Shown: in pieces, positions 17,560-59,655 of the stretch
How positions within the stretch are numbered: the stretch's first letter is position 1
Layout of the letters: each line of letters starts with the position of its first letter
Origin: Urechis unicinctus
Lineage: Eukaryota; Annelida; Polychaeta; Xenopneusta; Urechidae
Reading direction: 5' to 3'
Length of the DNA: 64,000 nt
Assembly: GCA_034190875.2 (NCBI GenBank)
Contig: CM067343.1
Location: 34,220,059-34,284,058 of the forward strand
Position numbers and translations under genes: made by a program
The notes under the pieces: model-generated
Databases searched by the model: none
Told to the model about the DNA's origin: nothing
What the model saw: the letters and a program-made list of their open reading frames with translations, nothing else

Positions 17560-18634
17560 TTACGACACCACATCAGTTAAAGGAGTGTGATTACAATTTC
17601 GATGTTGGATGTCAGCAATATAACCATTGGGTTGCTTTACACAGAAACTCGGCAATGTTGCTATGGTTTCTCGAAACTTCTTGTGTAAGACACAGTACAA
17701 GATAAAATTGCCCGAGAACTTGATGGCTTGCAGCAAGTTGGTGACCATGTTAGCTGATGCGTAATCCTGAAGATCTGTGGCATGGCCGACACGGAAGAGG
17801 AACTGTAGGAATATAGAGGGACAAACACAGATGAAGAAACAGAACACCATGGTAACAAGCACCCAGGTGGTTCTCATCATTACCTGGAGACGCTCCTGTG
17901 TGTTGGACGACAGGTGTCGCCGGCGGTATATGGACTTCAATATACCGGTGTTACAGGTAATCAAGGTGATCAAAGGAAGAAAGGTGCCGAGTAAAGACCA
18001 TATGAAGAAGTGAACACCTGCGTGAGTTTGCTCGTGGAAAAACCACGATGCTTCCTTGGCATAGCAGTAATCCGTTGGGGTACATTGGAATTTGAATAGT
18101 CTGTACGTGAAGAATAGGGGAAGATTGAGAGCGATGGACAACGAAAACAATCGCGTGAACAGCTTTTGTTCGTGTTACTGTAATAACATTACTGGCGATG
18201 TGTGGGTAACACACAGCGAGACATCTAGCGGCTGAGATGAGAGTTATTAGCCATGTGCTGCTGAAGAGAAATATGTTTAGAAGCGGGTCTTTATACAGTA
18301 TGTAATAAGCGTATACAATCAACACATTGGTACTTGCTTGCCCCGCGGACATATTACCGATAATGAGAGCAGGAAAGCCCACCAAACAGAAGAGCAAATC
18401 GGACATGGCAAGCGTGATTAATCCAACTGTGGCTGACCGCTCTATCATACTGGTGTTCTGCCAGAGGCGTTTGTTATTGAACACAACAAGAGTGATCAAG
18501 TTTCCAACTATGCCTACTAGCAATACGGAGGGAATGACGATGTTATCGATGATATGCGCCATGGTCATAGACCCACCTTGCCTTGTTGGCGGCGTTACAG
18601 TCGTGGTGTTGTCCGCCTTCAAAGTGACTTCCAT
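17560..18634 (-). CDS. Rhodopsin-class (class A) peptide-type GPCR, single exon, one frameshift
   Basis: A seven-transmembrane receptor of about 357 residues, starting at the ATG at 18634 and ending at 17560. The N-terminus has an N-T-T glycosylation site at residue 9. TM1 has G-N (44-45) and TM2 has LAMSD (75-79). TM3 ends A-R-C (136-138) where class A receptors have D/E-R-Y, followed by L-A-V-C-Y-P. Near 18150 the frame shifts by one base: the upstream frame runs on out of register, while the downstream frame continues TM4 to TM7. TM6 has C-V-C-P in place of C-W-x-P. TM7 has N-F-I-L-Y in place of N-P-x-x-Y, then C-V-L-H-K-K-F-R. The C-tail is short. The overall look is of FMRFamide/TRH-receptor-like orphan receptors of invertebrates; the ligand is unknown. 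The frameshift may be an assembly error, an allele or early pseudogenisation. Confidence 0.85.
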
Positions 18635-18899
18635 ATTGTAGTAGTTTATTCGATGTGACGGTAGTTAAAATCCTAGAGGTATGCTTTGTCCCCTGCCGTC
18701 AATAAGTTGAAAGGCTTAGTCCACGAGACATAATGTAACGGCTTGAATATACTCGATGTTTTCTCGCTGGTTGTTTTTTGTAATCAAAATACAAGATGCA
18801 AATATTCACAACTGTTTGTTTTATCAATAACAAACTAAGTGAGAATCTGCTATACTGGATCTGTCTGAATCAGCAGCAACTATCTGTGCGTTAATGATG

Positions 18900-28215: not shown

Positions 28216-28234
28216 CTGCTTATAACCTCTACCA

Positions 28235-28565
28235 GCTGAGATGAGAGTTATTAGCCATATACTGCTGAAGAGAAATATGTTTACAAGCGGGTCTTTATAC
28301 AGTATGTAATAAGCGTATACTATCAACACATTGGTGCTAGCTTGCCCCGCGGACATATTACCGATAATGAGAGCAGGAAAGCCCACCAAACAGAAGAGCA
28401 AATCGGACATGGCAAGCGTGATTAATCCCAACTGTGGCTGACCGCTCGATCATACTGGTGTTCTGATGATGCAATTAATGATATTCGCCATGGTCAAAGA
28501 CCTACCCTGCTTTGCTGCCGGCTGTGTGGTCGTCGTGTTAGCGGCCTTCAAAGTGATTTCCATAC
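28235..28565 (-). pseudogene. Truncated duplicate of the GPCR (N-terminus to TM3)
   Basis: This copy is nearly identical to 18228-18634 of the intact receptor. It keeps the N-terminus (M-E-I-T-L-K-A-A-N-T-T-T) and TM2 to TM3. It has lost about 75 bases covering TM1 and the first loop (junction near 28465), has an extra C near 28429 that shifts the frame, and stops at the A-R region after TM3. TM4 to TM7 are absent. Sequence upstream of its ATG still resembles the parent 5' flank, so it arose by DNA duplication rather than from processed mRNA. It cannot encode a receptor. Confidence 0.92.
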
Positions 28566-29255: not shown

Positions 29256-29547
29256 GGTCATTTATGGTCTGTACCGCTCGCGCCATTTATGATCTATATG
29301 GCTCACGTCATTTATGATCTGTACCGCTCACGTCATTTATGTTATGTACCGCTCACGTCATTTATGATCTGTACCGCTCACCTCAATTATGATCGGTACC
29401 ACTCGCGTCATTTATGATCTGTACCGCTCACATCATTTATGAACTGTACTGCTTGCGTCATTTATGATCTGTACCGCTCGCATCATTTATGTTATGTACC
29501 ACTCGCGTCATTTATGATCTGTTCCGCTCGCCTCAATTATGAACGGA
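29256..29547. repeat. 25-bp minisatellite, about 11.7 units, with 150-bp higher-order period
   Basis: The unit is close to CGTCATTTATGATCTGTACC plus GCTCA. Units start every 25 bases from 29256. Variant units carrying GTTATG (29331, 29481) and CCTCAATTATG (29381, 29531) recur six units apart. The block 29306-29405 is therefore repeated at 29456-29547, a higher-order repeat of six units. Confidence 0.93.
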
Positions 29548-32637: not shown

Positions 32638-32643
32638 TTTATT
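32638..32643 (-). terminator. Poly(A) signal of the coiled-coil/PDZ gene
   Basis: AATAAA on the minus strand, about 142 bases after the stop codon at 32785. A TTTATT on the plus strand marks it. Confidence 0.5.
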
Positions 32644-32784: not shown

Positions 32785-35700
32785 TTAGCAAAACTCCTCA
32801 GAGCCAACTTTGAACTGCATTTGAGATGTCTCCTCGAGCCCCATACGAGTATCAACCTTGGCTAACAGTTTTGGTGCGTAATCTATCACTATGGCAATGA
32901 GGTTGTCAAGGTAATACTTTTGTTGTCTCGTTTCCAAAATCAGATCTCTCAAAGCTTGCAGGACATCAATCTGAAAAGCATATTTACACACAAATATAAA
33001 GACGCGCATTGAATATGTGAATTAATATACGTGAGATTCAATTATGCAATTATATTTAGTTTATTTACGTCCGTAAGTGCTGTTATTATTAACGACCGCC
33101 TGGGTAACGAGATATGTGATATATACGTGATACGCCTGGTCATGCATTGGGATTAACAAGACATGGTGATGAATTGTGTATGTGTGTGCGTCGATCATTC
33201 AACTGAACAACTGTGAACCAACCTAAACAACACCGTAATTTGTGTGACCGGAAACTAAAAAGACAACAAAAGAATCCAATAAAAATATGTTATTTTCTGC
33301 TCAGTAAAATCATGGGCTCCGTCCACCATTGCCTGTTAGCGTTACCACCGACCTTAGGCGAGTCTTTGAGAGCGACCCACAGTGGGATATGAGTGTCATA
33401 CGCATCATATGCTAGCACTGAGGGCGTTAGTAAGAGAAGACAGGAGTCCGAGGAATTATTCATAAACGTCAACAACAACAACAACAACACAACAAGGATT
33501 TCAAATATTTCAAAAGATTTATATACGAATAAGCCAATTGATACCAGCACGTACCTCCGTTGACGTCTGTGTGAAGCTTGTTGAGATCGTCTGTGACGCT
33601 ATTTTGACTAGATCTTTTCATTCGCTTTTCCTAAGAACATATCATTTTCGATTGATTTAATGATTTATTCCTGCAGAGTTTGTTAAGGTGAAGCAGTGTG
33701 AGACATAAGCTGGATCACTCACGTTTGATTGTAGATTGCTCAGCTCGGTTTGAAGGCCGCTATTCTCGTCCTGTAGAGCCTCGTAATCTCCCCTTAATCT
33801 GAGCACAGCACGAGTAACAAGTTATCACAATGGTTTCGTAAATCAATGTGTACCCAAGTCGGCCATATCATTTAAAATAATTCACTAGGTCCTCGTAAAC
33901 TAACATCAAAAAGCTAAAGGGCTCACTCCAACCACGCTACGCGGTGAGCATTTCCCGCACGCCCACCGTCAAGTGGCACCACTTTATATAAACAAAAGCA
34001 CATGGAACAGTTGATAATGTCAATATATGAGACATCTTATTTGTCGATCAGCCGCGCCTCAAAATGTCATGGTCGTTTTGAGATGGACGTTATGACAACC
34101 AGTGTGTCGAACACAAGTTGCGTGTTAACATATTTATAGGGAGTGAGCCCTCTTACCGCAGCTAAGCTCTTTGTTAGCTCCAACACAATGCATTCGTGCT
34201 TAGTCTAGCGTAACATTCTCACAGAAAACAAATGCATTCACTGTAACAGATGATTCCTAAAAAATATAATTCTTACTGAACTATGTCCACATTGAGATCG
34301 CTGTTTTCTAACTGAACAGCTTCCAGCTCCATCACAGCCAATGCTAGATCTTCTTTCAATCCATCTAATTCATCTTTGGTTATAAGGGGTTTGCTGATTG
34401 GTTGTTCTCTGAGAACCACTATTTGGAGTTTATCCACAGTGGATCGGATCGTTTTACTAACTTCTTTGTCTGACAAATCTGTAACTGCTTGGTTGTTGAT
34501 TTCCAGAATCCTATAAAAGGTAAATATTTACTTTAAAGAATAACAAAAGTGTAGGACAAAGTCTGGTCAAACTGGTTGCACTATATAGGGCAATAATCGA
34601 GATCAATCTTAACACAAATTATTATCAGTTGGACAGAACCCCCCTCAAAGCACATTCTCAGTAAATTATAATATATAATCATTGATATATAATGAGAGTT
34701 TTTGTGTTGTTACTCTCAAAATGGCAATAGGCGTTAACAAAATCCTGTAGTGTCGCGGATAAGAAAATATACAGTGATTCGTATAGTGGACTGACATGCA
34801 GATCTCAATCAAATAATATAAGTCACGTGACTCACTTGTCTCCCTTTTGAAGGTCACATGACGACTCTGTCTGTTTGACAACGAGTCGGCCATGTTGGTC
34901 TCTGCCATGCAAGAAACCTACAGACGGATGAACATTGACCTCGCAGGTCACAAGTAAAGGGGTACGGACGGATTTGGCAAGCTCATAAAGGGAGTATTGG
35001 GGCATCTGCCAGAAAAAACATATTGCACATATAAACGTATAGTCCATTTCGTATAATAGATCAATTAAGATACCCAAAAAAAGGTTAATTTACCTACGTT
35101 TACTGCAACACTTATTTTATAAATGATGCATGTTGTAGAATGTGTACCTGTTTTTTGGGTAGATGTTTTCTCGCTATGTCTAGGTGGGAGGCTATGTCGG
35201 ATTGCTCGTGTCTCAGTAACTGTAGTGTGGCGTCAGCTCGACTCAACTGATGCACGTGTTCGGCAAGTCCAGTCTTGTCCACAGGCCTGCAGTTTGTAGA
35301 TTGATAGGTATACATTTTCAAAGGAATTGGTATTAATTTTGGTTTTGTTCATAATCGCGGTGCTAAATCTAGATGACATTGACAAAATCGGAGTTAAACA
35401 AAGTGGATTTTGTTTGTATATAGCGATATCGAGTTTAATCGTGTTAGCAGCGTTAACGGATGTACATGCTATCGTATATCAAGTCGACTGACTTCATTTA
35501 ACTTTGTTAAATTTAACTATACAAAAACATTGAAAAATATAGAAAAGGTTAGAAACAGTAAATAGTTCATCGGAATTATGGCCACCCACCTGTCGTTGAC
35601 ACCTTTCATCTTCTCCATCACTTGCTGCATGTGCTTGGTGTTACGCTCCTGTGTTTGTACCTGTTCAGTGATCTCCCTGAGCTCAGTCTCCAGTAGATCT

Positions 35701-37227
35701 ACCTTGGCGTGAGGGTCTGAGTACGCCTCGACCTTCTTGGCCCGATTGAGCTCCCTCTGAAGGCGATGACACTTGTCTTGCCACGTTTTTTCCTGCTGTG
35801 ACGTCATCTTCTCGAGCTTCTCGTATTTTTCATCGCTCTGTGAGTTGTGAATGAACAGCAACGTTTAAACACCAATGAATCACACATGAAATCGTACATT
35901 AGCAAGAGATCCTAATATATCTATTTCAATTCAGGGTCAGTAAATATGTTAGGCCTAGACCCAGTGCGATTCCCATGAAATCCTATGCTTACATATAACC
36001 AGCTCATCGTATCGAAAGATGTGTACGCATAAATGTTCAAACATTGATCTCCCTCATTATCATATCTGTATCAATATTTATGATATGAAAATTCGTACAT
36101 ATTTATGCAACAGGTATAGATTCTACCTCAGCGATACTGTCATTTTGAAGTTGAAGTTGCCGCTGTAAGTTAGCTATGGTGAAGTCACGTTCAGATACAC
36201 TCTCCTTGACAACTTCAATCTCCTGCAACAGCTGAAATGCAAACGACCAAACGTTGGTGCTGTCAAAGAATTTCTACGGTATACGATACTTTTATAAACC
36301 TCATTTATCAATGGAATGGATTTTATAAGGTGTAATGTGGTAACAACATTGTGCTACAGATAATATACGAGTAATAATCAATTGCTTGATTTTTCAACAT
36401 TTGGAACACAGACTATGAAGTACGCTTCATTGATACACAGAGAGAATGAAACCAAAATAATGCAGCAGTGTGCAGCAATCTGCAGTCATGCATTTCGTGA
36501 CTGAAATAACTGCAAGACATACATGGAATTACAGGAGCGGGTGTTATCAAAGAGAGAAAGAGAAACGCTGGTGGGTTACAATATACAAACATCAGCAAAA
36601 CACAGCTGTCGATAAAGCTACATAATGAGGTCGCTGTGTGTAGAAAATAGTGCTAATTATTACTTGCAAGTCATTACGTGCACGCTCGGGTAATATATAG
36701 GGACAACCAATTACAACAGCAGATGTGGGGGGGATCATCGTCTGGCAAAAGGTGCATACGACACGCGTTAATCGCAGCATCATGGGTCAATTTCTAAAGA
36801 AATACAGCTATGTATTAGTAATAGTCGTTTTAACAAGGAGTCTGCTATGCAGTACGTCAGAACTAACATATACACACACGGCACTTCTACAAGAGATGCA
36901 GTCTACCTCGAGGCTATTTCCCATGACGTCATCAGAGTGAGTCGATCCGGACCGCGGTGTGCTGTACTTGATTTCACCGCTGACAGATTTAGCCATATTT
37001 AAGATATAAGGGTCCTCGTGATTTTGATCAGACAGCGGTACAACAGGTAGCGGAAGGTCATCAATATCTAAGGTGTAATCCGTGTCACTGACAGACGTCA
37101 CAGCTCCACTAGCAACCCCAGAGTCCAGACTGGGTGTGTTTGTGACATGCGAGTCGTTCAGCCGGGTAGCTGCATCTCTTGTGGTGTCCGAATCCAGACA
37201 AAACAAGGAAGCCTCTATCTCCGCCAT
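32785..37227 (-). CDS. Coiled-coil/PDZ protein with Rab11-FIP-like C-terminus, 10 exons
   Basis: The model is joined by GT..AG sites in consistent phase: 36907-37227, 36127-36231, 35590-35837, 35148-35286, 34836-35005, 34277-34510, 33723-33798, 33555-33630, 33353-33417, 32785-32970. It totals 1620 bases, about 539 residues. The start ATG at 37227 sits in AACAAGATGGCGG, a good initiation context. An acidic Ser/Thr-rich N-terminus (about 107 residues) is followed by coiled coil, a PDZ domain, a second helical region, and a C-terminal helix reading Y-Y-L-D-N-L-I-A-I-V-I-D-Y-A-P-K-L-L. That helix resembles the Rab-binding domain of Rab11-FIP proteins (Y-I-D-N-L-L-V-R-V-M-E-x-x-P-x-I-L). The likely role is a membrane-traffic or polarity scaffold. 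It lies just downstream of the SAM/RA gene on the same strand and may be its 3' part. The exon at 33353-33417 is supported only by phase. Confidence 0.72.
34277..35005 (-). CDS. PDZ domain exons (two exons)
   Basis: Exons 34836-35005 and 34277-34510 join at GACAA|G in phase 2 to give a PDZ fold. There is a beta-strand run (P-L-L-V-T-C-E-V-N-V), the L-Q-K-G-D-K-I-L-E-I-N-N-Q-A-V turn that marks PDZ domains, a helix (S-D-K-E-V-S-K-T-I-R) and a last strand (L-Q-I-V-V-L-R-E). The usual G-L-G-F carboxylate loop is not obvious; S-V-G-F-L may take its place. The exon continues into a Leu/Glu-rich coiled coil. Confidence 0.8.
35148..36231 (-). CDS. Coiled-coil exons of the PDZ gene
   Basis: Exons 36127-36231, 35590-35837 and 35148-35286 encode Gln/Glu/Lys/Leu-rich heptads such as L-Q-R-Q-L-Q-L-Q-N-D-S and L-L-E-T-E-L-R-E-I-T-E-Q-V. 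These are dimerising coiled coil. The exon phases (0, 2, 0) link cleanly to the PDZ exons. Confidence 0.8.
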
Positions 37228-38210
37228 CTTGTTTACCCGAACATCACATTCACTTAGGTAAATTTATCAATTAAGCTTTTCTTATGCAGCATTGTTTCAT
37301 CATTTTTTTTACATTATCACCTGCGTTAATACGATCGGGCTGCTCAGGAATAAGATTTAGACCAACAGCATTACAGCAAGATAACAGACATGTGCTAAAT
37401 GTATTATCATCTGTGTATCGTGAACAAATTACCCAAATAATAAACACTTGCGTACATACATATATAATTCCTAAATCAATCTCTGATGCATATGATGCTT
37501 ACAAGTAACTGCAAATTATTGTCAAAAGATGAATAATTATCCATGGAGTGACATACTCGGGCATTTGACCAGCATGCAAATATATTTTACGTGCAAACCT
37601 CGCCCATTAATAGAAATGTGATTTCTTATTTTGAAAATTCACGACAAGAACATTTTTGCGACATCTATCACTTATCTCTACCAACAATCGTGCATGTGCG
37701 TACCATTTAGGCAAAGTATATTACTCGAATTGAAAGAACAAAGTGCGGGTTACTTAAAACATGCATTCGAAAATTATCAGAAAATGCAGCTGTGTTGTAA
37801 ATAGTTGTACATAGACAGCTTCGACGGGACAAAACAAACACCGATCTACGAGTGACTACGACAGCGATATGAACCTTTATCTCAAGCGTCCGTAGTTTGT
37901 TGTAGCCACGTGGCGACAGACTCACATCAGGACCCTGTCTCGATGACGTCACAAGTCTCTGATCAACGACAACAACCATTATGTGAAAAAGTGAACCGCT
38001 AGGTGTCCACGTCGCTGTTTTAAACACCGAGAATCACATTGCTACAGGTAATAGAACATAGTTGTAATGATTGGCTGCATTCGTCCACGTCACCTTACTA
38101 CGCCATTACGTCGGGACACAGCCACGCAATGGCAAGCTTGTGAAGACCCATACCATTACTCTACCGACATTGTTGAACCTGTAACCGAAGTATCAGAGAG
38201 GCATATTTAC
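37228..38210 (-). CDS. Possible extra exon between the SAM/RA and PDZ genes (37875-37958)
   Basis: A possible 84-base exon at 37875-37958 follows TTGATCAG and ends AAAG|GTTCAT. It is phase 0 at both ends and encodes R-L-V-T-S-S-R-Q-G-P-D-V-S-L-S-P. It would extend the SAM/RA gene in phase. I found no acceptor that joins it in phase to the acidic exon at 36907-37227 except a poor AAG before the ATG. The rest of the interval shows no clear 3' end, poly(A) signal or promoter motif. Confidence 0.35.
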
Positions 38211-39037
38211 CTGAGCAAGCTGATTGCTATTTTTTGCCGATAACGACAGCTGCGACTTGTTTAACCTGAAACAATTTGTTCAAATGCAATGCTATTTTCG
38301 ACGAAGAGCATCGTAAAATATAATTACATGCTATAACCCTAAAAAACAGTATGTATTAAGAACATTACAATGCGTATCATGACTACAAGCTAATACTACA
38401 CAGCAGCGGAATCCCGATCAGGGATGCCTGTCTTGTTATGTTGGACTAATCCGCCGGTTGATAAGCTGGTATATATACCCGTGTTTGGTGATGGCGTGTG
38501 CTGCACTGGCCTCACACAACAGGAAGTGGTCACACTCTATGTCTGACACTAACTCGTGGTCCTCAGTCGGGCTGTACACTGTTAACAATACATTCCATGG
38601 TTAGTACAAACAGACCACAACAGGACTATATCAAATATATATACAGTTGACTGGTAGAATAATTTTGCTGTGTAAAGCTCAAAATGAAATGTTAAAATGC
38701 TATACAAAGTGTACGCGCAATTCACTGCAAAGACTTAATTGTGAAGATTAAATGATTTTTTAAAAACATGAAACATTAGCAAAACCCACAAAATATGATT
38801 CACATTTATACGCGTCTAGCAATGTGCGTCTCGTTTCTAACGTTGATTGAGGCTGCATCACGAATCAACACCGCGCTCTAATAATGCAACTTGATTTACA
38901 AACATCAAAGAGGAACCTCACATATCTCATCCCATTCTGTCTATTAACATGAAAAATGTCAATCTGAAGCAATTGATAAATTATAGCCATGTGCATTGAG
39001 TCATGTTGAATTCAGTTTACACTTAAACTCGCCAAGA

Positions 39038-39072
<35 letters not shown>

Positions 39073-39075
39073 TGC

Positions 39076-39157
<82 letters not shown>

Positions 39158-39369
39158 GTGTGTGTAGTGCGGTAACAATATAAGAAGCGTCTCTGACCGT
39201 GATCATGGTGCCGGTGCTTCTCATGGGCCTGTAACAGACACAGCTCCGATGACCTGCTCGTCAGCTTAAATTGGCGGGAAACTAGAGCAATAGTCTCCAG
39301 GCACGTGGTACCATTGGACACCGTCACGGTCTTGCTGCGAGACTTGACGGTCGGTAAATGACAAGTGAC
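38211..39369 (-). CDS. Second RA-like domain exons
   Basis: Exons 39198-39369, 38479-38578 and 38211-38265. The first reads S-K-T-V-T-V-S-N-G-T-T-C-L-E-T-I-A-L and E-L-C-L-L-Q-A. The second reads D-H-E-L-V-S-D-I-E-C-D-H-F-L-L-C-E-A. The fold pattern repeats the first RA domain but is more diverged. The last exon (N-K-S-Q-L-S-L-S-A-K) is a helix-like tail ending at a GTAAAT donor. Confidence 0.62.
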
Positions 39370-42300
39370 CTGTTATGATCCAACAATGAAAACTACGTTA
39401 GTATAAATCCTACATGAAATGAAGAACTAAAAAGGTAGGTTAATAAATGAAATTATCCAAAGACATGACCAATTACAGATATGGTATTCTTTGTCAGTTA
39501 CATCAAAATTGAAATTTTTGCGGAACACACCTGTATATCTGTGCCTGGGCGACGCTTGACCTCAAAGCGGTAATTAGCTCCCTTGGGCCACAATTCCTTC
39601 AGTAATATAGGACATTCATACCTGCCCAGTTCCTTGATGTCATCTACAAACAACCCACCAAGGTATAAAATGAGGCCCTTAACCGTGTATAATCTTAATG
39701 AATGTCAGTTATTGGTAGGTATGCAGTCCAACATGATGCGATATACCATACCTCTTGATTGAGGGCGTATAATCCAAATGCCACACCTGAAGCGTGTATG
39801 ACTCACCTTGATAGCGTGGATCAAGAGAGGCTGTGTGAAGGAGGAAGAGATTAGGGTCCTCCACAATGTGTAGTTTCTCTTGTAAGGCCTCGATGACGTC
39901 ACCTGTACTTGCTGATGATGCTGCCATGGTTACCACGGTTTTCTGGAAATTGCCTGGGTAAAGATTTACAAGAGGGATTTTGAGAAAGATTTTATCTGAT
40001 TAAAACACCAAATCACTGTAAGAATGGGTGAGTACTCTTTGCTGCTGTGTCTATGTTATAAATGTGTCAGGCATTGCAGCAACGTGTGCGGGGCTAATCA
40101 CCTCGAATATCATGCCATATGTCCAGACTATGACGGGAATCCTGGCTGTTAAGTTTGGTCGAAGCTCCGCTGCAATGAACACGACAAGAATTCAGGGAAT
40201 GAGATGATTATAATTTCGTAAATCAACATTTACAGCATCATATTAAATCACAGCAGCTGATGGTGAACCTCTTGTTGGCCGGGGTGCTATGCTGTGACGA
40301 TGATGGCAGCGGCGATACAGCAGATGGAACAGACAAGGTACTGTGTCCTGAGTGACTTCTGGGACTCCGCGCTATATCCGGGTCACTGTTAGCAGAGTCG
40401 TTGATGGACAGCCCCTTGACGTGCAGGTGATGGTGACTGTGGGTAGATGAAGAGGAAGAGTACGAGGAAGGGGAACGACTTCTCGTGGCGGAATGGAAGA
40501 TCTCGTCGAGAACTGGTCCTCCCGAGAGTTGTAGCTCATAGAGACAGGAGAGAATGAGTTCCCGGTCCTCGACATCCTGTATGCTGAGGGTGTCTGGGAC
40601 ATGGACGCATCAATAAATCATTAAGGGCACGACCAGCACAAACAACCGGCGCGATACTTCAGATTGACTGTCAATGACAGCAGTATTACAACTCACCGAA
40701 TAGCTTCATGTCAATTTGTGCTAGATCTTTCCCAGTAATACCATGTTCTGTGAAGTCAAATGAATTGATTAACTTTAACCTGTGCCAGGAGTAATACAAG
40801 CAATAGCGTGGATGAGAGGAACAATATCACAAAAGACAAATTTCTGTTTTACCTCGGAAAGTAGGTTCAAATTGCACTAGGTCAGTCGCAGTTAGCCACT
40901 CAGAAACGTCCCTCATCGACCATTTCACCAGAGGTCTCTGTAACTCACATCAACGGATCATCCCTTTATTAGGAAGCATTCTTGTATATAGATAGGACCA
41001 ATGTATGATATCCGAAGAGGTGTACTCTAGAGGAATTATTCGTTGGTAATTCCAGGTGATGAGACAAATCACAAAGAAATGTTATGTTGATGACTTTGTT
41101 CATCGTTTGGTGTGAGAATAAACGAAAAATGAAAACCAAGTGGGAAAATATCATCCTTCCTAAATCACTATTGATATAACATTCTGTGGCAGAATACAGT
41201 CAAATTATGCCTACCATCAAATAAATAAACAAAGCCAAAGTTTTCCTCTTAATTGGTTTGTTTAATTGTGGTGTTATTGATTCATCCAATGTAAGCGAGG
41301 TGCCGCGTCAAGCTTTTCAATTTTCTTAAAAATTCGTCAACAACATAAATATGCAAAGCAAAAACCGACATTTTGCAATGTCCAGGCAAGCGCCACCTCC
41401 ATTTGACCAACACCCTGTTCATAAACACTGAATGGAATCTCACTTTCTGCCACGCTGCTCCCTTCTGGCGTTCCATCTGGTCACGTGACTCCTGCTTTGA
41501 TAAAAGACTGGAACGCTGACTTGGCATTGGCCTCTGTGATGACGTCACAGGTGTGTTGTCGGGTTGAGGTGATCGGCGAGTTTCTTCATCTGATTGCGTT
41601 GTATCACCTGTAATAATTGTGCAACAGAAAAACTAACATCTGAATGGTATAAAACACACAAGGCTCAAAGGGCGGTGGTGAGGAATAAAATGTTAATTGA
41701 TAACTCAATTACGATTTCAAAGGGGGAAAATGGGGGTAAAAAATGGATATTTCGGCATATTTCCATGGCTCTTAAAAGATCGATATATCCTTGGCAATAA
41801 ATTGGTTAGGCACGATATATCCATGTAATCCGGTGATTTCATTTAATCAATTACCGCTGAGCAACTGTGTGTTCCTGATCTGTTCCTGTTGTAGCTCTGT
41901 GAGGTAGGATGTGATTTGTGTCTGCTGTCGGTCATTCTGTTGCTGGAGGCTACTGAGGCGCTTCTGTAGGGCGTCACTCGATGCCTCCAAGTCCCTCCGC
42001 CGCATCGAAGTTTGCTGCTCGAGATAATATTCACAGGTTTTTAATATCTCGGTGTGAACAAGATCTTTATACGAAGCATAGAGTCTACAGCAACTGCTGG
42101 CTTGAATGAACTTGTAAGGGCTTTTGCAATATTTCGTGCCTTCAAGTAAGCAAATGATGATGCTTAAAAGCAATCAGATGGCTCTTGAATTTGGAAATTT
42201 ATTGTGCTAAGGTTTTCGTCCGACGTGACCAGAAAAGTTTAACCTGCGTAAGCGGACACCTGTCAATAACGACCATTTGCTGGCATAAGGGCATTTAGTG

Positions 42301-45300
42301 GACACCTTAGTGACGTTTATAACCTACACCTGACGGATTGTACGCCAGTGTCATTAATACACTAATAACGTATTCTTGTGTTCGGCAGGTACACGTTTGA
42401 CTGTAGAAGGGCCATATCCAGGTGCTTATCCGGTGGTTGTACCCCTTGCCAGTGGTTGTACCCCTTGCCGGTGGTGCTTACCTTGAGGTATGATAGAGGT
42501 TCGGCATGCTGTGGTTTCGACTTCAACTTCTGAATCTCTGTTAGGATTTGTACTCGCTGCTCTTCAGGTACACAAAGGTCCGCTATGAAAAGAACAGGTA
42601 ACATTATTACAGTGATATTCTACATCAGCGTGGAATACTTGGATGGTACATCACACCTGAACAGGTAATGGAAAAATCGATTGATAATATTTATATTGAT
42701 GTATTTATAGCAATATAAAGGAATTGTTAGTGTTTATATCAGCTGCAATCAACGCTGTTATTATGAAGCTATGAAGACACATACATTGACCGGTAGAGGG
42801 ATGGTGAAGAATAAAACCAAGCAGACAGCAAGTTATAAATCGTGCTCTGTGCGTCCCTAACAAGCGTCCCATGGATCCCTCAAAGATGGGTAATTGGGTC
42901 AATTAACGAGCATTTTAGTCAAACCAGGGGGTTAGGGTGGGGGTGAAAGTGGGGGGGAGATGCTGTTGTATCATAACGTCATTCATGGTAGTCATGACGG
43001 ATCTTCGCTACCCACAGGGTGAACAACCCTTTATAACGCATCCATAATAATAACGTTTATACGGATGTCACATGAACCGCATTCTGTTAGATATAAGCCA
43101 TGCAAATCCCACTCTATGATGCAAACCAAAACGCAACCAGTATGTATAAAATATCACTTAAGCGTACATTTTACAGAGCGGTCAGTTTTCCAACCTGAAA
43201 CATCAAAACCCAGAAATAATCCTCTCTACAGCAACCGACAAAACAATATGCATATCTGATAGAAACCACCACCAGATGGCGTCCGATACACGGGATAATT
43301 TATGGGTGCGGCGTATACATGCAAATCACATGAATAAGATGATCCCGAATTGCTAATGGTATGCGCGACGCTGACGTGGGTTTTGAAATAAAACTTGGGG
43401 GTTTAGCGCCACCAATGCTCCTATCCCTGCGGCGATGGGCGACTATAATTATGACGATTGGACAGCGCGCTTCAAGTAACATCGTCCACTTCGGTTGCGA
43501 ACCTCCGACCTTTGGGTCAAAAACCAGGGAAGTGTGTCCTTACATGTAGTTGATTGCCCGACACGGTCCACGCTCTGTGGAACAAACAGCTACATTCCCT
43601 CTGTGGCTGGCGTCGTTTGCGCGGTGGTCTGGAAGCGCTGCTATTCCTGCGCACCACTAAGCCATGTTTCTTTCTCGTTGTCTTGACAACCCTTTGTGGG
43701 TATTTTACGTGTCCCAGCGTCGGGTTCTGCATTTATCAGTGTAGACCGCAGACACTGTCAACGGGAAATGCGCTATTGAAATTGTGCATCAGCAACTTGG
43801 CATCCCTGTGATGTTGTTATTTGTCCAGAGGCCGCGCCAGGTGTGAACTCACAAACCCGGTCAACTACAATTAAATACGATATCCGCGCTCGTTTCACCA
43901 TAAGCATATCCACGTTTACATATCACAACAACGCTTCCAGTTCAGGTCACTTCACCCCGCGAAGTATAACAGCACGCGTACAAAAAATCGCTAAGATCGA
44001 CGGCTAATCGGCAACTCCTGAACTAGCCATTCTCTCTGTACACATATGTGTAATTTGCGCGCCAGCACCTCGGGAGTGTACAGTTCAATACGGACACGCC
44101 AGACGTAAGAATTCACAACGCCACATCGGACAGCTGCGCCAAAAGCCAACACATGCGTTTTGAGCATCAGTTTTGACTTGGTGTCTGTCGGTATGCCGTG
44201 CGTTGGGAGTACACAATATGCTATTCTTAAAAAATGGAATCGATAAATTATAATCATTCATTCCAACTGAAGCTAGAATATGACATCTACTATGACTTTC
44301 AGGTCATCGAGCAAATTCTATCGATCGAAGCCACTAACAGATCCAGTGTCCAGTTCTGTTGGGAAAGATTTCATGCAAATAGTCAAAGTCGTCGATTGGC
44401 TGCCACAACCAGCAATACGTGTCGGTATGTTTTAATATCGGGGTTTGAATTAAATGCGTCGTATACCATCAAAATCAATATCCTTCGCTAAAATGATAGT
44501 CAGAATGCTAATGCATAAAATCGATGTTTAAATGCATCAGACGGTCAAAAGACGTCATGCGATATTATGACATAATGATATATACGACGTCATCAGGATA
44601 TAGGCCGTAAAGAATAAACATTGTTTTATAATTTCTACTCTATCATGAGGTTGAAAGAATTGAGTTCTCAACAATCATAACGTCAAGGGTAATAAATAGA
44701 GGACAAACATTGGCGAGGTCAACAGTAAGAAACAATCATAACGTCAAGGATAAAAGATAAAGAGCACATGGGCGAGATAAATAGAAAGAAAACAAACCGT
44801 AACTCCTGAAAGTAATCAGTAGAGTGAAGAGAAAACAAAGGCAACGGAAATCAATCGACCCTCGCCAATAGGTACCATATGCAAATCCTGACAAACAAAT
44901 TCTTACTAATCAGCCATATACTGTTTAAGTACAAGACAAGATAAAACCTACCCAGATCTTCTCCAGTGATTTCAAGGAAGCCGGCGCCATCGATACCACA
45001 ATCTGCCACAAGAAACAAACACACTAATCTGTAAAGCCATCTACAGAAAAGAGCAAATTGATTTATTGCTCTATTGTATTGAGCATGGCATATACTTTAT
45101 GTGTGATCATATATCGTTATGACCAATACAATCCACATAAGATATGAGAGTTAAAAACGTCTTATCATCGCTCAACCCTAATGTCCACGCTCAGGTTTTA
45201 CGATTACATACAATGTACGTCTATTGTTTTAACCGAATACATCACTACGCTAAATTTGAAGATCTCATAAGTCAACCAAGTTAGTCTGCCCGATGTAATG

Positions 45301-48300
45301 GTGGCATTTTATATTGATAATCAATGCCTAAACTTCGAATGGGGTTACTTATATAAATAACATTGTTTAATAACAAGTGCGTTATGATAACACCCTATTG
45401 TCAGCATGCTCAGCACATGCCGCTCATGACAAGAACTAGATGGCGCCACAGCGCCATGTCTGACAGTAAGCCATGCACGATGCGAGGCAATCACGCCTCG
45501 AGAAAGGTACAATTTAGGGTCACTCGAAATTGAATGAGCTTGACAGGACCGGCCGCCGATAATAAAGTTTGATGGTGTTGTCAGTATAGTTTGTCATGAA
45601 CTTTGATGAAGTCTATACAATATCGGATAACGATACCATGTTCTGTAATGAAGCCGTGGGAAGCCAGGAGCGTATCGATTATTTTAAGTTCTAAAAATGC
45701 CCATGATTCATCATTCGGGATCCTAACAATACAAAAATCGACATGAGGAAATACCGATTTGACGAGATATGTATATAACTGTGAATGCACAATTATATAT
45801 GAAGATATGATATCATTATCATATGTTGTCAAATCCCTAAATGTGGGAATACGCTGCTCGTTGTATCCACCAAATGATATATTTCCTCAATAACAAGACG
45901 CCAATAGGCATCGAAGCTCTGCTTATGACATGATTTAAACTATACAAGACCACATCATTACATTTTTATTTACATTGTATTCAGTGGCATGCTTTTAAGA
46001 GTCCCAGAGCCCCTCGAGTTAATCACATTTGCCTAGAAATTGAATCACAATCTACGAAGCCTTAGTTAGTGCAATTAGTTAGTTCCACAAGCTATATAAA
46101 TAACATATAAAAGTAGCCTTGTGTAAGGTCAAGGTCACTGATACGGATGAAATTTTTATCTGTTTATCCAAAAAAATCAAGGATCAATGGTCATAGAGGT
46201 TAGATTTTTAGTTAGCAAGAAACAATCACCATAAGAGAGGCCAAAGTGATATTTGGGGTCAAGAGCTAAGATGATAATTAAACATGTCATTAAAAATTTA
46301 CGGCGGATGCTGGAGCAAACAGTATGGCTAAAAAGTGATTTTCGTTCAAGGATAGAATTTCGTAACATCAAAGTAAATGAAAGCATGACAAATAAAATAA
46401 TAGCATTCCTTCTCACCCGCTAGTACTTCCGCTAAGTCGTCGAATTCCACGTACTGGCACCATTCTATGATGTCATCGTTATCCCACTCGACGGCTGGCT
46501 TGGTCTGCCACGCGTAATCCACCACCGACAAGACACTGGTGTCACTATGGAAGCTGGCCCATCGAGCAGGCCCCGTTTTCTTCTCCGATCCGTCATCATC
46601 ATCATCATCATCGTCATCATCATCATTATCATCATCGTCTATTACGACATCGTCATCAACCACATCACGTTGCAGGTCATCTCCCTCATTTTCACCATTG
46701 GCCATTTGCTCGCTAGGGGGCTGCTCTAATGACGTACACAGTTCTATTTCATCCTCCTTGCTGGGTTTCCAAGACTGAGAGAGCGACTTCTGCCATGAAT
46801 CAGAAGTCATTTCACGAACAGTCGTATTCCTGGGTGTGTTCGTTGGTGTGTAATCGTCCTCTACCATCACCGAGTTGTGTTGAGATCCGTTGAGGAGGGA
46901 GACGTAGGTCGTGTTACTATCGTTGATGAAGCTCTGTGATATCGTGATCATTTCACTTTCATTCAGCATACTACTATTCATAGGTCCGTCATCGATCGGC
47001 AAACTCGACTCTAAAGTCACATCAGAGTCAAGGTCGTCTAAATCAAGTGCCAGCTCACTCTGTGTGTCAAGGTCAGTGTCGTTAGCGATATTAGGAACGG
47101 GGGAAATACTCCTGAAACTGCGAAGGCTCGGTGCCCCTTCATTCAAATCGGAGTCGTTTTTGGAATACATCTCTGATACCTCGTTAGGCTGGTTCAGCAT
47201 ATGGAACCTATTCTTGCGCGAGTTCATTGCAGATTCAGATTCCGAGTTTATCATCGACATATCCGTTTCGCTGGACAATCCCTCGGCGTCATTCAAGCGG
47301 ATATCACGGAGCAGGAGGTCTCTGGATGCGCCATGGATAACGGAGGATGGCTCCATGCTCTCAGGGACCACGTTCGGCGATGATCTCGAGATAAAGGTAT
47401 CTTTGATCATCCCATGCTGAGATCGAGAGGCGTTTGGTGAAGTTGTGGATCCATGGCTGGATAATGAGGAGAGTTCACTAGGACTACTGATACTGGATAC
47501 GGATCCCGTTAGACTTAGAGTGGATACATCCGAAGAGGAGCGCACCATCTCCAGGCGTCCCGTCTGGAAGTCGTAGGACACGGTGGTGTGGGGGTGAGTT
47601 GGCGGGGGAGGAGGGCGGGATTTGGGGCGAGATTTGCGCGGCGGTGGGGTGGGTGTGTCCGATGCTTCAACGACCGATGTGGAACTGCGAGTCGCAGTTG
47701 CCTTGCTTGGGGTGGTGTGTGACGGAAGTGCATGTGACGGGATTGAATGTGACGTGTTAGGTTTTGACACGTGGGTATTTGGAAGCGACTTTGGTGTATT
47801 TGGAAGTACCACAGGGGTTGTTGGCAAGGGAACTGGCTGGGCTGTGAGAGGCGTCTGTGGCATCATTTGAACCTCACTGACTCTCCTCAGCTTCATTGCC
47901 TCTCTGAAGGACATCACCGTCGCTGGTTGACTGCTGCTCTGGCCATTGGGGACCTCCTTCGCAACGCCCTCCTTAGCTGTGCCCTCATGAGGCTTCCCAT
48001 TCCGCTGAATCACTCCTACATTGGGTAGCGTTTGTCGACGTGCTAAACATGAGAGATTCCATAAAGGTCTGAGCGGTTTTATCAGCTTTAGGTTCGTCTG
48101 AACTGGCAGAACTCTCAGAGTCAGAGACTCCTTGTGTACCAGTTGACGCGGGGCTGGATCGGTTGACACGGTTGCTCTCGGGTGAGTAGATAGTCAGGCG
48201 ATCAGCATCGTGAGCTCCCGAGCCGTTCTTCTGGGCGTATCCTGCTCGATTACCTAGAGTCCCAGAGCTCTCAGGGTTAGGTGTTCCACCCGTATATTGA

Positions 48301-49103
48301 TGCGATTTACGATGCTCATTATGAGGCGTTCTGTTATCTGGAGAAGACGCGTGTACGTCTTCTGAGATGGACCGTTGGAGATGCGGTGGTTTAGAAGGCA
48401 CATGTGGTTTATTTGGAGTCTTTGTGCCGTTCTGGGGGCGGAATGTACTGACAGACTTCGTGAGGCTGTGATGAGTTTGATATTGGTCATTAGAACTATC
48501 ATGAGGCGTCGACGGTGATGCGGGACTAGAAATCCCGTTCAGTCTCGGGGTACCACTCTCGTTAGAAATGTAGCTGCTGTCTGATGCCACGTCATTTCCG
48601 GTTTGCCCGGATATGGAAAGCGACTGTCTTGGGAGAGTGGCGGAGTTAGGCTGGTCCTGAGAGAGTGAGGAATATCTCCTGGGTGGTGGCGGAGCCTTCC
48701 GCTTCAACTCACTAGATGAATCCTCCAGAAGGTCATCTAGACTCGATGAAGGTCGAATAAACGAATCGGTCGATACTCCATCATTCGGGCTCTCCCTTGG
48801 TGACAGTGGAAGGCGCTCTTGAGAAACTGATCTTTGGTGCGGGTTATGTTTCTTGGCGACAGTGACGTCACTTTCGGATCCGGATTCGTCTACGCCGCGG
48901 AACGATCTAAAATCCAGATTCTGCTGGTACGTGTTTGGTAAGTCATCATTCTGATCGAAAGTAGTCCCGTTCTCAAAGTGATAACTTATTGGTCTCACGT
49001 TGTCACCGACCCCCGGTACTTCTTTGGAGCTCGACGATCTGTTAGAGGCGGACTTCTTAGGAGTACTCAGGGTCTTTGACTTCCGTTTAAATACTTTAAA
49101 CAT
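38211..49103 (-). CDS. SAM-SAM-RA-RA scaffold protein, 14 exons
   Basis: Exons joined by splice sites and phase: 46417-49103, 44952-45002, 42482-42582, 41855-42017 (acceptor approximate), 41444-41607, 40853-40937, 40697-40747, 40269-40593, 40102-40169, 39807-39953, 39531-39643, 39198-39369, 38479-38578, 38211-38265. They give about 1427 residues. In order: a basic start (MFKVFKRKSK), a long Ser/Pro-rich region with poly-Pro SH3-type motifs, an acidic Asp tract, SAM1, coiled coil, SAM2, a Ser/His-rich linker, an RA domain and a second RA-like domain. The likely role is a cytoplasmic adaptor that binds Ras/Rap-type GTPases and oligomerises through SAM. The first exon needs a one-base frameshift near 48.0-48.17 kb; with it, every downstream phase agrees. 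The last exon ends at a donor, so the 3' end is missing or lies in the next gene. I do not recognise a family with this order. Confidence 0.75.
39040..39168. repeat. (TG)n/(CA)n microsatellite in an intron beside a splice donor
   Basis: About 130 bases of TG repeats with two short interruptions (AGTGCG and TATG). On the gene strand it is (CA)n and begins about 30 bases into the intron after the donor of exon 39198-39369. Confidence 0.97.
39531..40169 (-). CDS. RA (Ras-association) domain exons
   Basis: Exons 40102-40169, 39807-39953 and 39531-39643 give a ubiquitin-like RA fold: K-T-V-V-T-M-A, then T-G-D-V-I-E-A-L-Q-E-K-L-H-I, D-P-N-L-F-L-L-H, then L-G-R-Y-E-C-P-I-L-L and N-Y-R-F-E-V-K-R-R-P. 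These match the usual order of RA motifs. I infer binding to a Ras-family GTPase; the basic patch V-K-R-R-P fits the known contact type. Confidence 0.72.
40269..40937 (-). CDS. SAM2 exons and Ser/His-rich linker
   Basis: Exons 40853-40937, 40697-40747 and 40269-40593 encode a second SAM domain: V-K-W-S-M-R-D-V-S-E-W-L, then H-G-I-T-G-K-D-L-A-Q-I-D, then D-V-E-D-R-E-L-I-L-S-C-L-Y-E-L. A Ser/His-rich linker follows. Phases 1, 1 and 2 agree throughout. The last donor (GAG|GTTCAC) is weak but keeps phase. Confidence 0.8.
41444..45002 (-). CDS. SAM1 (distal part), coiled coil and polar linker exons
   Basis: Exon 44952-45002 gives C-G-I-D-G-A-G-F-L-E-I-T-G-E-D-L and exon 42482-42582 gives D-L-C-V-P-E-E-Q-R-V-Q-I-L-T-E-I-Q-K-L. 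Together they complete SAM1. Exon 41855-42017 is a Gln-rich coiled coil. Exon 41444-41607 is a charged linker ending Q-K-G-A-A-W-Q-K. Confidence 0.78.
43261..44260. other. GC-richer intronic segment, possible SINE-like remnant
   Basis: An intron of the SAM/RA gene between exons 42482-42582 and 44952-45002. This part is less AT-rich than its surroundings. On the minus strand AGGTTCGCAACC near 43487-43500 resembles a pol III B box. No tRNA fold is clear, and ORFs here have no family features. Confidence 0.25.
46417..49103 (-). CDS. Large first coding exon, Ser/Pro-rich with internal frameshift
   Basis: The ATG at 49103 is the first in frame. About 350 residues run in one frame to 48.0 kb, rich in Ser, Asn and Pro, with K-A-P-P-P-P-R-R-Y. 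A second frame of about 550 residues opens by 48169 and continues P-T-P-P-P-R-K-S-R-P with several proline stretches. It then has a tract of consecutive Asp near 46.59-46.64 kb and the start of SAM1 (W-D-N-D-D-I-I-E-W-C-Q-Y). The exon ends at a GTGAGA donor. The two frames overlap with no room for a normal intron, so one extra base must be present or a frameshift is real. Exon length minus one base gives the phase required by exon 2. Confidence 0.8.
46590..46640. repeat. Coding (TCA)n trinucleotide tract
   Basis: A near-pure TCA run that the minus strand reads as consecutive Asp codons in the first exon of the SAM/RA gene. It forms an acidic patch before SAM1. Confidence 0.95.
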
Positions 49104-58755: not shown

Positions 58756-59655
58756 ATGGCAATGTTTGTTAATCGCACAGTGTCTTGTTCGGTGATGACA
58801 AACAAATTGCTGCTTACGAGCTTCTGGCGAAACTTTGGTCCAAGTTCAAGGGTATTATCGTCCGCTGTCAGTAATGTTCGGTTGCTTGTTGGGCATCATG
58901 AAACAAGGTCATCGATTAATCTGATTGGATACTCTACCTACAAAGACAAACCAGTCTTCGACAAGCTTTTGCGAGAAACTCCTATGTGCGTTTTGTCTGT
59001 AAGAAGTTATGCTAAGGGGAAAGACAAGGGAGGAAAAAATAAGAAGAAGGCCGGCGGAAAGGGTGGGAAAAAACCCAAAGTAGAACTCAGCGAAGATGAA
59101 CTGGCGTCTGTGGTCGACTTCGAGGGATTTAAGTGCGAATTGGAGCAGGCCCTTAGTGACCTCAAACTTCAGTATCAGCAGCAATTGTCATTACGGACAA
59201 ATGTTGGAACATTCGACAGTTTAGTTGTGGAAACTGAGGACGGGAACATTCCCCTGATAAGAATTGGACGTGTGGTTATGAAGAATCCAACATTGGCCGT
59301 CATTAATATGACAGCCAATCCCAGGTATACCAGTGCTGTGGCAAAAGCCATTGAGAATTCTGGTATGAATTTAAATCCACAACAAGATGGTACTTCTATA
59401 TTTGTGCCAATTCCCAAAGTAACTAGAGAACACAGGGAAAAATTAGCCAAAAATGCGAAGATGCTTAGCGATAAGACTAAAGATAAACTGAAAGTTATCC
59501 AAAACAATTGTATCCGTGCCATCAAAAAGGTGCAAGACTCGCATTCAGCTGACTTGATCCATAATGTTCAAGACACCGTTCAATTGGTAGCCCACGAGTT
59601 TATGCTGCAGGCAGATACTCTGATGCAGCAAAAGAAAGATGAATTACTTTCTTGA
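58756..59655 (+). CDS. MRRF: Mitochondrial ribosome recycling factor, intronless
   Basis: A 299-residue protein that splits mitochondrial post-termination ribosomes with a translocase. Residues 1-85 look like a mitochondrial targeting region, ending R-S-Y-A-K-G-K, followed by a Lys/Gly-rich linker (86-110). The RRF domain spans about 118-298. It includes I-R-I-G-R-V-V-M-K-N-P, SGMNLNP (202-208), P-I-P-K-V-T-R-E-H-R-E (219-229) and a C-terminal helix ending K-K-D-E-L-L-S, all in the family order. The ATG at 58756 is followed by a second ATG at 58762; either would keep the presequence. Vertebrate MRRF is split into several exons, so a single exon is notable, but no poly(A) tail or flanking repeat marks it as a retrocopy. 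It converges on NMRK. Confidence 0.95.
   Translation: MAMFVNRTVSCSVMTNKLLLTSFWRNFGPSSRVLSSAVSNVRLLVGHHETRSSINLIGYSTYKDKPVFDKLLRETPMCVLSVRSYAKGKDKGGKNKKKAGGKGGKKPKVELSEDELASVVDFEGFKCELEQALSDLKLQYQQQLSLRTNVGTFDSLVVETEDGNIPLIRIGRVVMKNPTLAVINMTANPRYTSAVAKAIENSGMNLNPQQDGTSIFVPIPKVTREHREKLAKNAKMLSDKTKDKLKVIQNNCIRAIKKVQDSHSADLIHNVQDTVQLVAHEFMLQADTLMQQKKDELLS

Follow-up and report, generated by a model that had tools for sequence, protein, structure and literature searches.

A minus-strand locus in Urechis unicinctus probably holds a SAM-SAM-RA-RA gene and a separate PDZ gene

Introduction

The window analysed here, a stretch of 64,000 nucleotides from contig CM067343.1 of Urechis unicinctus, holds collinear exons for SAM, RA-type, and PDZ domains. 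Do these exons encode one giant protein or separate ones, and what would the product with the SAM and RA domains do? Adaptors of the Ste50 style, with SAM plus RA, are known from fungi. Among animal proteins, ARAP1-3 contain SAM and RA together with PH, ArfGAP, and RhoGAP domains; afadin is a scaffold with two RA domains, FHA, DIL, and PDZ, and no known SAM; and neurabin-1, Shank, and CNK combine PDZ and SAM in one protein and are not known to have RA. We know of no protein of the doubled SAM plus RA type in the human SAM set.

Results

Exon models. We modelled 13 exons from 49103 to 38436 (gene 1) and 10 exons from 37227 to 32785 (gene 2) on the minus strand (Table 1). All 21 introns were GT-AG and kept phase, with a single frame change within exon 1 as the exception. 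The collinear, phase-consistent exons in one direction that an earlier note had described were thus borne out, exon 1 excepted. Gene 1 starts with the A of the ATG at 49103, 9 codons downstream of an in-frame stop, and gene 2 ends with the final base of a TAA at 32785, with an AATAAA 3' of F10 at 32643. The weakest acceptor in use was that of F9 (2.5). Because the splice-site weights came from training on the very sites being scored, the scores serve for ranking only. Coiled-coil and disordered calls were made by eye from the letters.

Table 1. Modelled exons of the two genes and what they encode
Feature	Positions	Strand	Content
E1	46417..49103	-	ATG at 49103; about 895 codons; long low-complexity N-part; first part of SAM1 at exon end
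E2	44952..45002	-	middle of SAM1; GT-AG, in phase; SAM_2 match on joined SAM1
E3	42482..42582	-	SAM1 end; donor CAAG/GTAAGC, score 10.5
E4	41855..41963	-	coiled-coil-like segment (by eye) between SAM1 and SAM2
E5	41444..41607	-	linker
E6	40853..40937	-	SAM2, first part
E7	40697..40747	-	SAM2, middle
E8	40269..40593	-	SAM2 end, then Ser/His-rich linker; weak donor AG/GTTCAC (4.9)
E9	40102..40169	-	linker
E10	39807..39995	-	RA1, first part; Pfam RA 31.5 bits on E9-E11 piece
E11	39531..39643	-	remainder of RA1
E12	39198..39369	-	putative RA2, first part; RA 15.5 and RA_2 17.1 bits, both below cut-off
E13	38436..38578	-	putative RA2 end, C-tail, TAA stop; best internal donor 4.0
F1	36907..37227	-	ATG at 37227 in AAACAAGATGG; acidic N-part
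F2 36231-36127, F3 35837-35590, F4 35286-35148	35148..36231	-	coiled-coil-like region (by eye)
F5 35005-34836, F6 34510-34277	34277..35005	-	PDZ, then second coiled-coil-like region begins
F7 33798-33723, F8 33630-33555, F9 33417-33353	33353..33798	-	second coiled-coil-like region and linker
F10	32785..32970	-	FIP-like tail, TAA stop

By codon score, E1 reads as coding in frame 0 as far as about 48030 and then, from about 48022, in another frame, a change that the earlier note did not mention. An alternative is an intron at 48253-47842, which leaves an open frame and has site scores of 6.6 and 6.3, the top of 509 pairs. We prefer a one-base difference, either an assembly error or real, because the codon score stays coding on both sides of the change. 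Provided that this is so, the gene 1 product is about 1,418 aa long.

One boundary was replaced. An E4 start at 42110 was dropped for 41963, which has the same phase and a better acceptor (6.0 vs -4.7) and is open when joined. The 42110 start is still part of the Pfam run on the spliced proteins, the SAM2 search of PDB, and the codon training.

Domains of gene 1. In the spliced 618-aa C-terminal part of gene 1, Pfam found SAM_2 (E 1.7e-16, two stretches), SAM_1 (1.4e-11), and RA (8.1e-10, two stretches), with RA_2 at 0.0012, below its cut-off. The HMM search of joined translations that the earlier note had proposed as a check thus returned both SAM and RA. Taken piece by piece, the two SAM domains were confirmed against a SAM_2 cut-off of 20.5: SAM1 scored 26.8 bits (25.9 with the preferred E4) and SAM2 scored 42.5 bits. 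RA1, which is C-terminal to both, exceeded the RA cut-off of 21. The RA2 piece alone stayed below the cut-offs for RA (21) and RA_2 (27). Of the two RA-type domains claimed, the first therefore stands, and the second is probably a divergent, sub-threshold RA copy. SAM1, SAM2, and RA1 are shown, as are the gene 1 exons as a reading of the DNA, and exon phases and Pfam together support the order SAM-SAM-RA-RA within one gene, with RA2 sub-threshold. A coiled-coil-like segment, called by eye, is also present between SAM1 and SAM2. The first 372 aa of gene 1 gave no Pfam family, nor did 48193-46418 alone, where the exon end cuts SAM1.

Among PDB sequences, those nearest to SAM2 were neurabin-1 (2.8e-5), Shank3 (0.0014), and aveugle (0.0024), and those nearest to SAM1 were DGK-delta (6.8e-4) and Shank2 (9.9e-4), with STE50 at 0.15 and 0.21. 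The RA-RA region matched no solved RA domain there, and its sole match at E<=10 was unrelated. Pattern searches for relatives of the 381-aa SAM2-RA2 part gave 2 matches in viral contigs and 41 in prokaryote contigs, none of them confirmed. In the animal's own genome, the RA family had 4 exon-level matches, none within the window, where the RA exons are split. Literature searches named no animal SAM-SAM-RA-RA protein among the matches listed.

Domains of gene 2. The 539-aa product of gene 2 matched Pfam PDZ (E 7.8e-7), and the PDZ piece scored 33.2 bits against a cut-off of 23.2 while covering only profile positions 39-80 of 81. This confirmed the PDZ domain. Against PDB chains, gene 2 had no match below E 0.16. 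The Rab11-FIP tail of the earlier note came down to a sub-threshold resemblance. Pfam RBD-FIP had no match at E<=1 on the 539-aa protein; with the final 65 aa it reached 13.6 bits (E 0.06) and with the final 61 aa 14.0 bits (E 0.048), both short of the 23.3 cut-off, and with the final 165 aa it scored 10.2 bits (E 0.71) and came last among 14 weak families. None of nine shuffled versions of the 65-aa tail matched any family at E<=10, in a search where HMMER filters discard most matches above about 0.1. The tail had no PDB match at E<=10. The region before it matched Rab11-FIP3 (PF25450) weakly, at 14.6 bits where the cut-off is 31.9, alongside further coiled-coil families. The C-terminal YLDNL segment resembles the FIP motif, with a link to ERC/ELKS; compared with Rab11-FIP and ERC/ELKS proteins, gene 2 has a PDZ domain preceding a tail that scores below the cut-off.

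One gene or more. We then asked how many genes the exons form. E13 and F1 lie on the same strand, 1,208 bases apart. E13 ends in TAA, and the top donor inside it scored 4.0, where donors in use scored 4.3 to 11.9. An in-frame stop lies 13 codons 5' of the F1 ATG, and the acceptor score at 37227 was -3.6. Two genes fit these start, stop, and splice signals better than one, and the one-protein reading was not supported; the earlier note had itself allowed for two genes. We consider it very unlikely that a giant protein or fusion isoform, SAM-SAM-RA-RA-CC-PDZ-CC-FIP, couples Ras/Rap to Rab11 traffic. The close spacing on one strand speaks for it, as does the gap itself, which contains no AATAAA or ATTAAA, only AATACA at 38357 and 37405. 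Six of the eight donor-acceptor pairs tried were phase-compatible, the best joining 38479 (4.0) to 37087 (4.3) or 36979 (4.5), and these acceptors are within the range of those in use, which start at 0.3 under the same weights. However, the sequence between the ATG and 37088, which would be lost with such a splice, scores as coding (0.289 per codon for 37227-37088; intron 95% point -0.039, intron maximum 0.409), and the stop of E13, the start context of F1, and the poor acceptor at 37227 also stand against it. Since the FIP part is sub-threshold, the proposed bridge from Ras to Rab11 is unsupported. A three-gene arrangement, in which a SAM1 gene stops after E3 and a SAM2-RA-RA gene starts in or near E4, is quite unlikely. 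The E3-E4 join is the weakest link of gene 1, its first-chosen acceptor having scored poorly, and the introns flanking E2 are long (1,414 and 2,369 bases); but E3 closes with a strong donor, and E4 from 41963 has a good acceptor in the right phase and runs in phase into E5. We therefore favor, with reasonable though far from full confidence, two separate genes in the same direction: a SAM/RA scaffold acting in a Ste50-like way, and a separately encoded PDZ adaptor, which has coiled-coil-like regions and a C terminus with a sub-threshold resemblance to the Rab11-FIP domain. The two neighbors probably do not form one giant protein.

Comparison with known systems. Passages of PMC9503583 describe Ste50 as a SAM plus RA adaptor that binds Ste11 and Ras, and gene 1 shares the combination of SAM plus RA in one adaptor. 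The order in gene 1 is also Ste50-like, with RA (RA1, 31.5 bits) C-terminal to SAM. However, Ste50 in fungi has one SAM and one RA, whereas gene 1 has two of each, counting the putative RA2, with a coiled-coil-like segment and a very long N-part, and the Ste50-type SAM family (SAM_Ste50p, PF09235) scored 16.7 and 15.8 bits in SAM1, below its cut-off of 21. The PH, ArfGAP, and RhoGAP domains of ARAP1-3 and the FHA, DIL, and PDZ domains of afadin were not found by Pfam in gene 1 (618-aa part, first 372 aa, and 48193-46418). Neurabin-1, Shank, and CNK are SAM-bearing scaffolds like gene 1, and neurabin-1 has the solved SAM nearest to SAM2, but here the PDZ belongs to the neighboring gene.

Proposed role of gene 1. 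By analogy, gene 1 most likely encodes an adaptor acting like Ste50. Its RA domains would bind a GTP-loaded Ras-family GTPase (Ras/Rap type) and recruit the protein to the membrane, and its SAM domains would dock SAM-bearing partners or self-associate. The protein would in this way link a Ras-type GTPase to a signalling complex containing SAM domains, a role that Ste50 has in fungi. Parts of PMC11257983 describe SAM-SAM docking in CNK-HYP, a RAS-MAPK scaffold. GTPase binding by RA1 or RA2 is not assured, because RA2 is acidic overall (8 basic and 12 acidic residues) and RA1 is charge balanced (13 basic and 13 acidic as a whole, 4 and 4 in its first half). Ras binding is also absent from many RA domains. 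A basic surface is expected where an RA domain meets the acidic Ras switch region; with a pI of 9.4, the first half of RA2 is basic, which we counted in favor of Ras-family contact.

The RA domains might instead be ubiquitin-like structural modules without Ras-type GTPase binding, in a protein whose SAM domains polymerize and organize an assembly of cortical or synapse-like type, in the manner of neurabin and Shank. We regard this as unlikely. The nearest SAM sequences, in neurabin-1, Shank2/3, and DGK-delta, point toward it, as do a divergent, acidic RA2 and an RA1 without net charge. However, RA1 is well above the RA cut-off, and Ras/Rap effectors such as afadin carry tandem RA domains.

Discussion

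Neighboring genes on the same strand make a fusion reading unsafe without cDNA, and portions of PMC3927609 give a similar warning about gene-prediction errors in metazoan domain architectures. For the proposed Ste50-like adaptor encoded by gene 1, it is a tentative and rather doubtful proposal that it founds a putatively undescribed animal class, SAM-CC-SAM-RA-RA, a Ras-family effector scaffold wired like Ste50 and conserved in other invertebrates. If true, the doubling of SAM and RA domains in an animal protein would make it a testable Ras/Rap effector scaffold.

Two adjacent genes probably encode the SAM, RA, and PDZ domains

The window occupies 34.22-34.28 Mb of its contig, in a genome of 1.19 Gb and 926 contigs. 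The size of this genome, the presence of introns in the genes, and neighbors such as a rhodopsin-type receptor point to an animal. Exon reading of the DNA gave two neighboring models, gene 1 (exons E1 to E13) and gene 2 (exons F1 to F10). All 21 introns of these models have GT...AG borders, and the intron phases are consistent, given that E4 starts at 41963 and that a frame change in E1 is accepted. This change is a shift by one near 48030-48022 on the minus strand: by codon score, frame 0 is coding up to about this point and the next frame is coding beyond it. The shift is an assembly slip, a real variant, or an unrecognized intron; with an intron from 48254 to 47841, the reading would likewise stay open.

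Features of the window
Feature	Coordinates	Strand	Remarks
Gene 1, 13 exons	49103 to 38436	-	exon reading of DNA
Gene 2, 10 exons	37227 to 32785	-	exon reading of DNA
Rhodopsin-type receptor gene (7tm_1)	17560-18664	-	two halves in different, overlapping frames
Ribosome recycling factor gene, uninterrupted	58756-59652	+	RRF 1.2e-32
Tandem array, 25-base unit, 11.4 copies	29257-29542		

In Pfam, the 618-amino-acid C-terminal part of gene 1 matched SAM_2 (E = 1.7e-16, two stretches), SAM_1 (1.4e-11), RA (8.1e-10, two stretches), and RA_2 (0.0012, under its cutoff), and the remainder of E1 matched no family. The labels "coiled coil" and "low complexity" were assigned by eye. When run alone, the two SAM domains (SAM1 and SAM2), the first RA domain (RA1), and the PDZ domain of gene 2 (E = 7.8e-7 in gene 2) each exceeded the cutoff, which confirms them as claimed in an earlier note. 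The RA-RA pair claimed there held for RA1, but the second domain, RA2, fell under the cutoff alone. Its best three families (RA_2, RA, and TUG-UBL1) are all named RA-like or ubiquitin-like; thus, RA2 fits a divergent RA fold. Read from the sequence, gene 1 is a real SAM-coiled-coil-SAM-RA-RA gene, with RA2 probable, adjoining a coiled-coil-like PDZ gene.

The earlier note suggested that all of these exons might encode one protein. We consider a fusion of gene 1 and gene 2 very unlikely. Six of the eight donor-acceptor pairs tried were phase compatible; the best of them joined 38479 to 37087 or 36979. However, the 38479 donor, the best of 13 GT sites in 38578-38401, scores 4.0 (the next, 38554, scores 3.5), a small margin below the 4.3 to 11.9 of the 21 donors in use, and E13, the last exon of gene 1, terminates in TAA. 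This stop is trailed by AATACA variants only, compared with an AATAAA 142 bases past the gene 2 stop, which speaks for fusion. Against it, F1 begins with ATG (context AAACAAGATGG) and is preceded by an in-frame stop 13 codons before this start, and the AG immediately 5' of the ATG has an acceptor score of -3.6. A splice into 37087 would also bypass 37227-37088, which is coding by score: its own frame averages 0.289 per codon, and the other frames average -0.314 and -0.102. In the null, made up of 489 intron windows that overlap and span 30 codons each, the 95% point was -0.039 and the maximum 0.409. Training of the score used E1 (47841 onward), E2 to E12, and F2 to F10 as coding sequence, with F1 and E13 left out, and the two genes' own introns as noncoding sequence. 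Thus, the E13 stop, the F1 start signals, and this coding score leave the single-protein reading unsupported. A further split of gene 1, between E3 and E4, is unlikely.

The gene 2 tail

RBD-FIP was the sole Pfam family listed for the last 65 (13.6 bits) and last 61 (14.0 bits) amino acids of gene 2, against a cutoff of 23.3. Over the last 165 amino acids it was the weakest of 14 subthreshold families (10.2 bits), and it was absent at E ≤ 1 from the listing for the whole protein. All nine shuffled tails had no Pfam family listed. Among PDB sequences, the tail had no match at E ≤ 10, and no hit to gene 2 fell below E = 0.16. At these RBD-FIP scores, the proposed Rab11-FIP tail, and hence the link to Rab11 traffic, is not supported.

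Neighboring features

The receptor gene may contain an intron, or it may be broken. Because a 241-base piece of it (18221-18460) recurs about 10 kb away (28225-28465) with 95% identity, the fragment was probably copied recently. The ribosome recycling factor is probably the mitochondrial one.

Relatives and possible action of gene 1

The nearest solved SAM sequences in a PDB sequence search were neurabin-1 (2.8e-5), Shank3 (0.0014), and aveugle (0.0024) over SAM2 and DGK-delta (6.8e-4) and Shank2 (9.9e-4) for SAM1; the RA-RA region had no related match there. No relative turned up when viral and prokaryote sequences were scanned with part of gene 1, and a literature search of thin scope found no such protein. 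To our knowledge, a SAM-coiled-coil-SAM-RA-RA gene is unusual, and in humans SAM and RA are known to occur together in the ARAPs only, with quite different partner domains. "Undescribed" therefore refers to a thin search, over these scans and limited literature. Elsewhere in the same genome, an RA-bearing open frame (L001:811-2940) looks like a Radil/Rasip1 relative.

The domain content and order are as read from DNA. Both SAM domains are acidic (pI 4.1 for SAM1 and 4.5 for SAM2). RA1 is close to neutral (pI 6.9). RA2 is basic in its first half (pI 9.4) but not overall (pI 6.0). Judging from this charge, RA2 may be the better GTPase binder, though its profile score is weaker. Ste50 binds Ste11 by SAM and Ras by RA (PMC9503583), and the CNK-HYP SAM pair has a part in KSR-MEK recruitment (PMC11257983); both are analogues for the possible action of gene 1. 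Its RA domains would contact a GTP-bound Ras-family protein, and its SAM domains would dock other SAM proteins.
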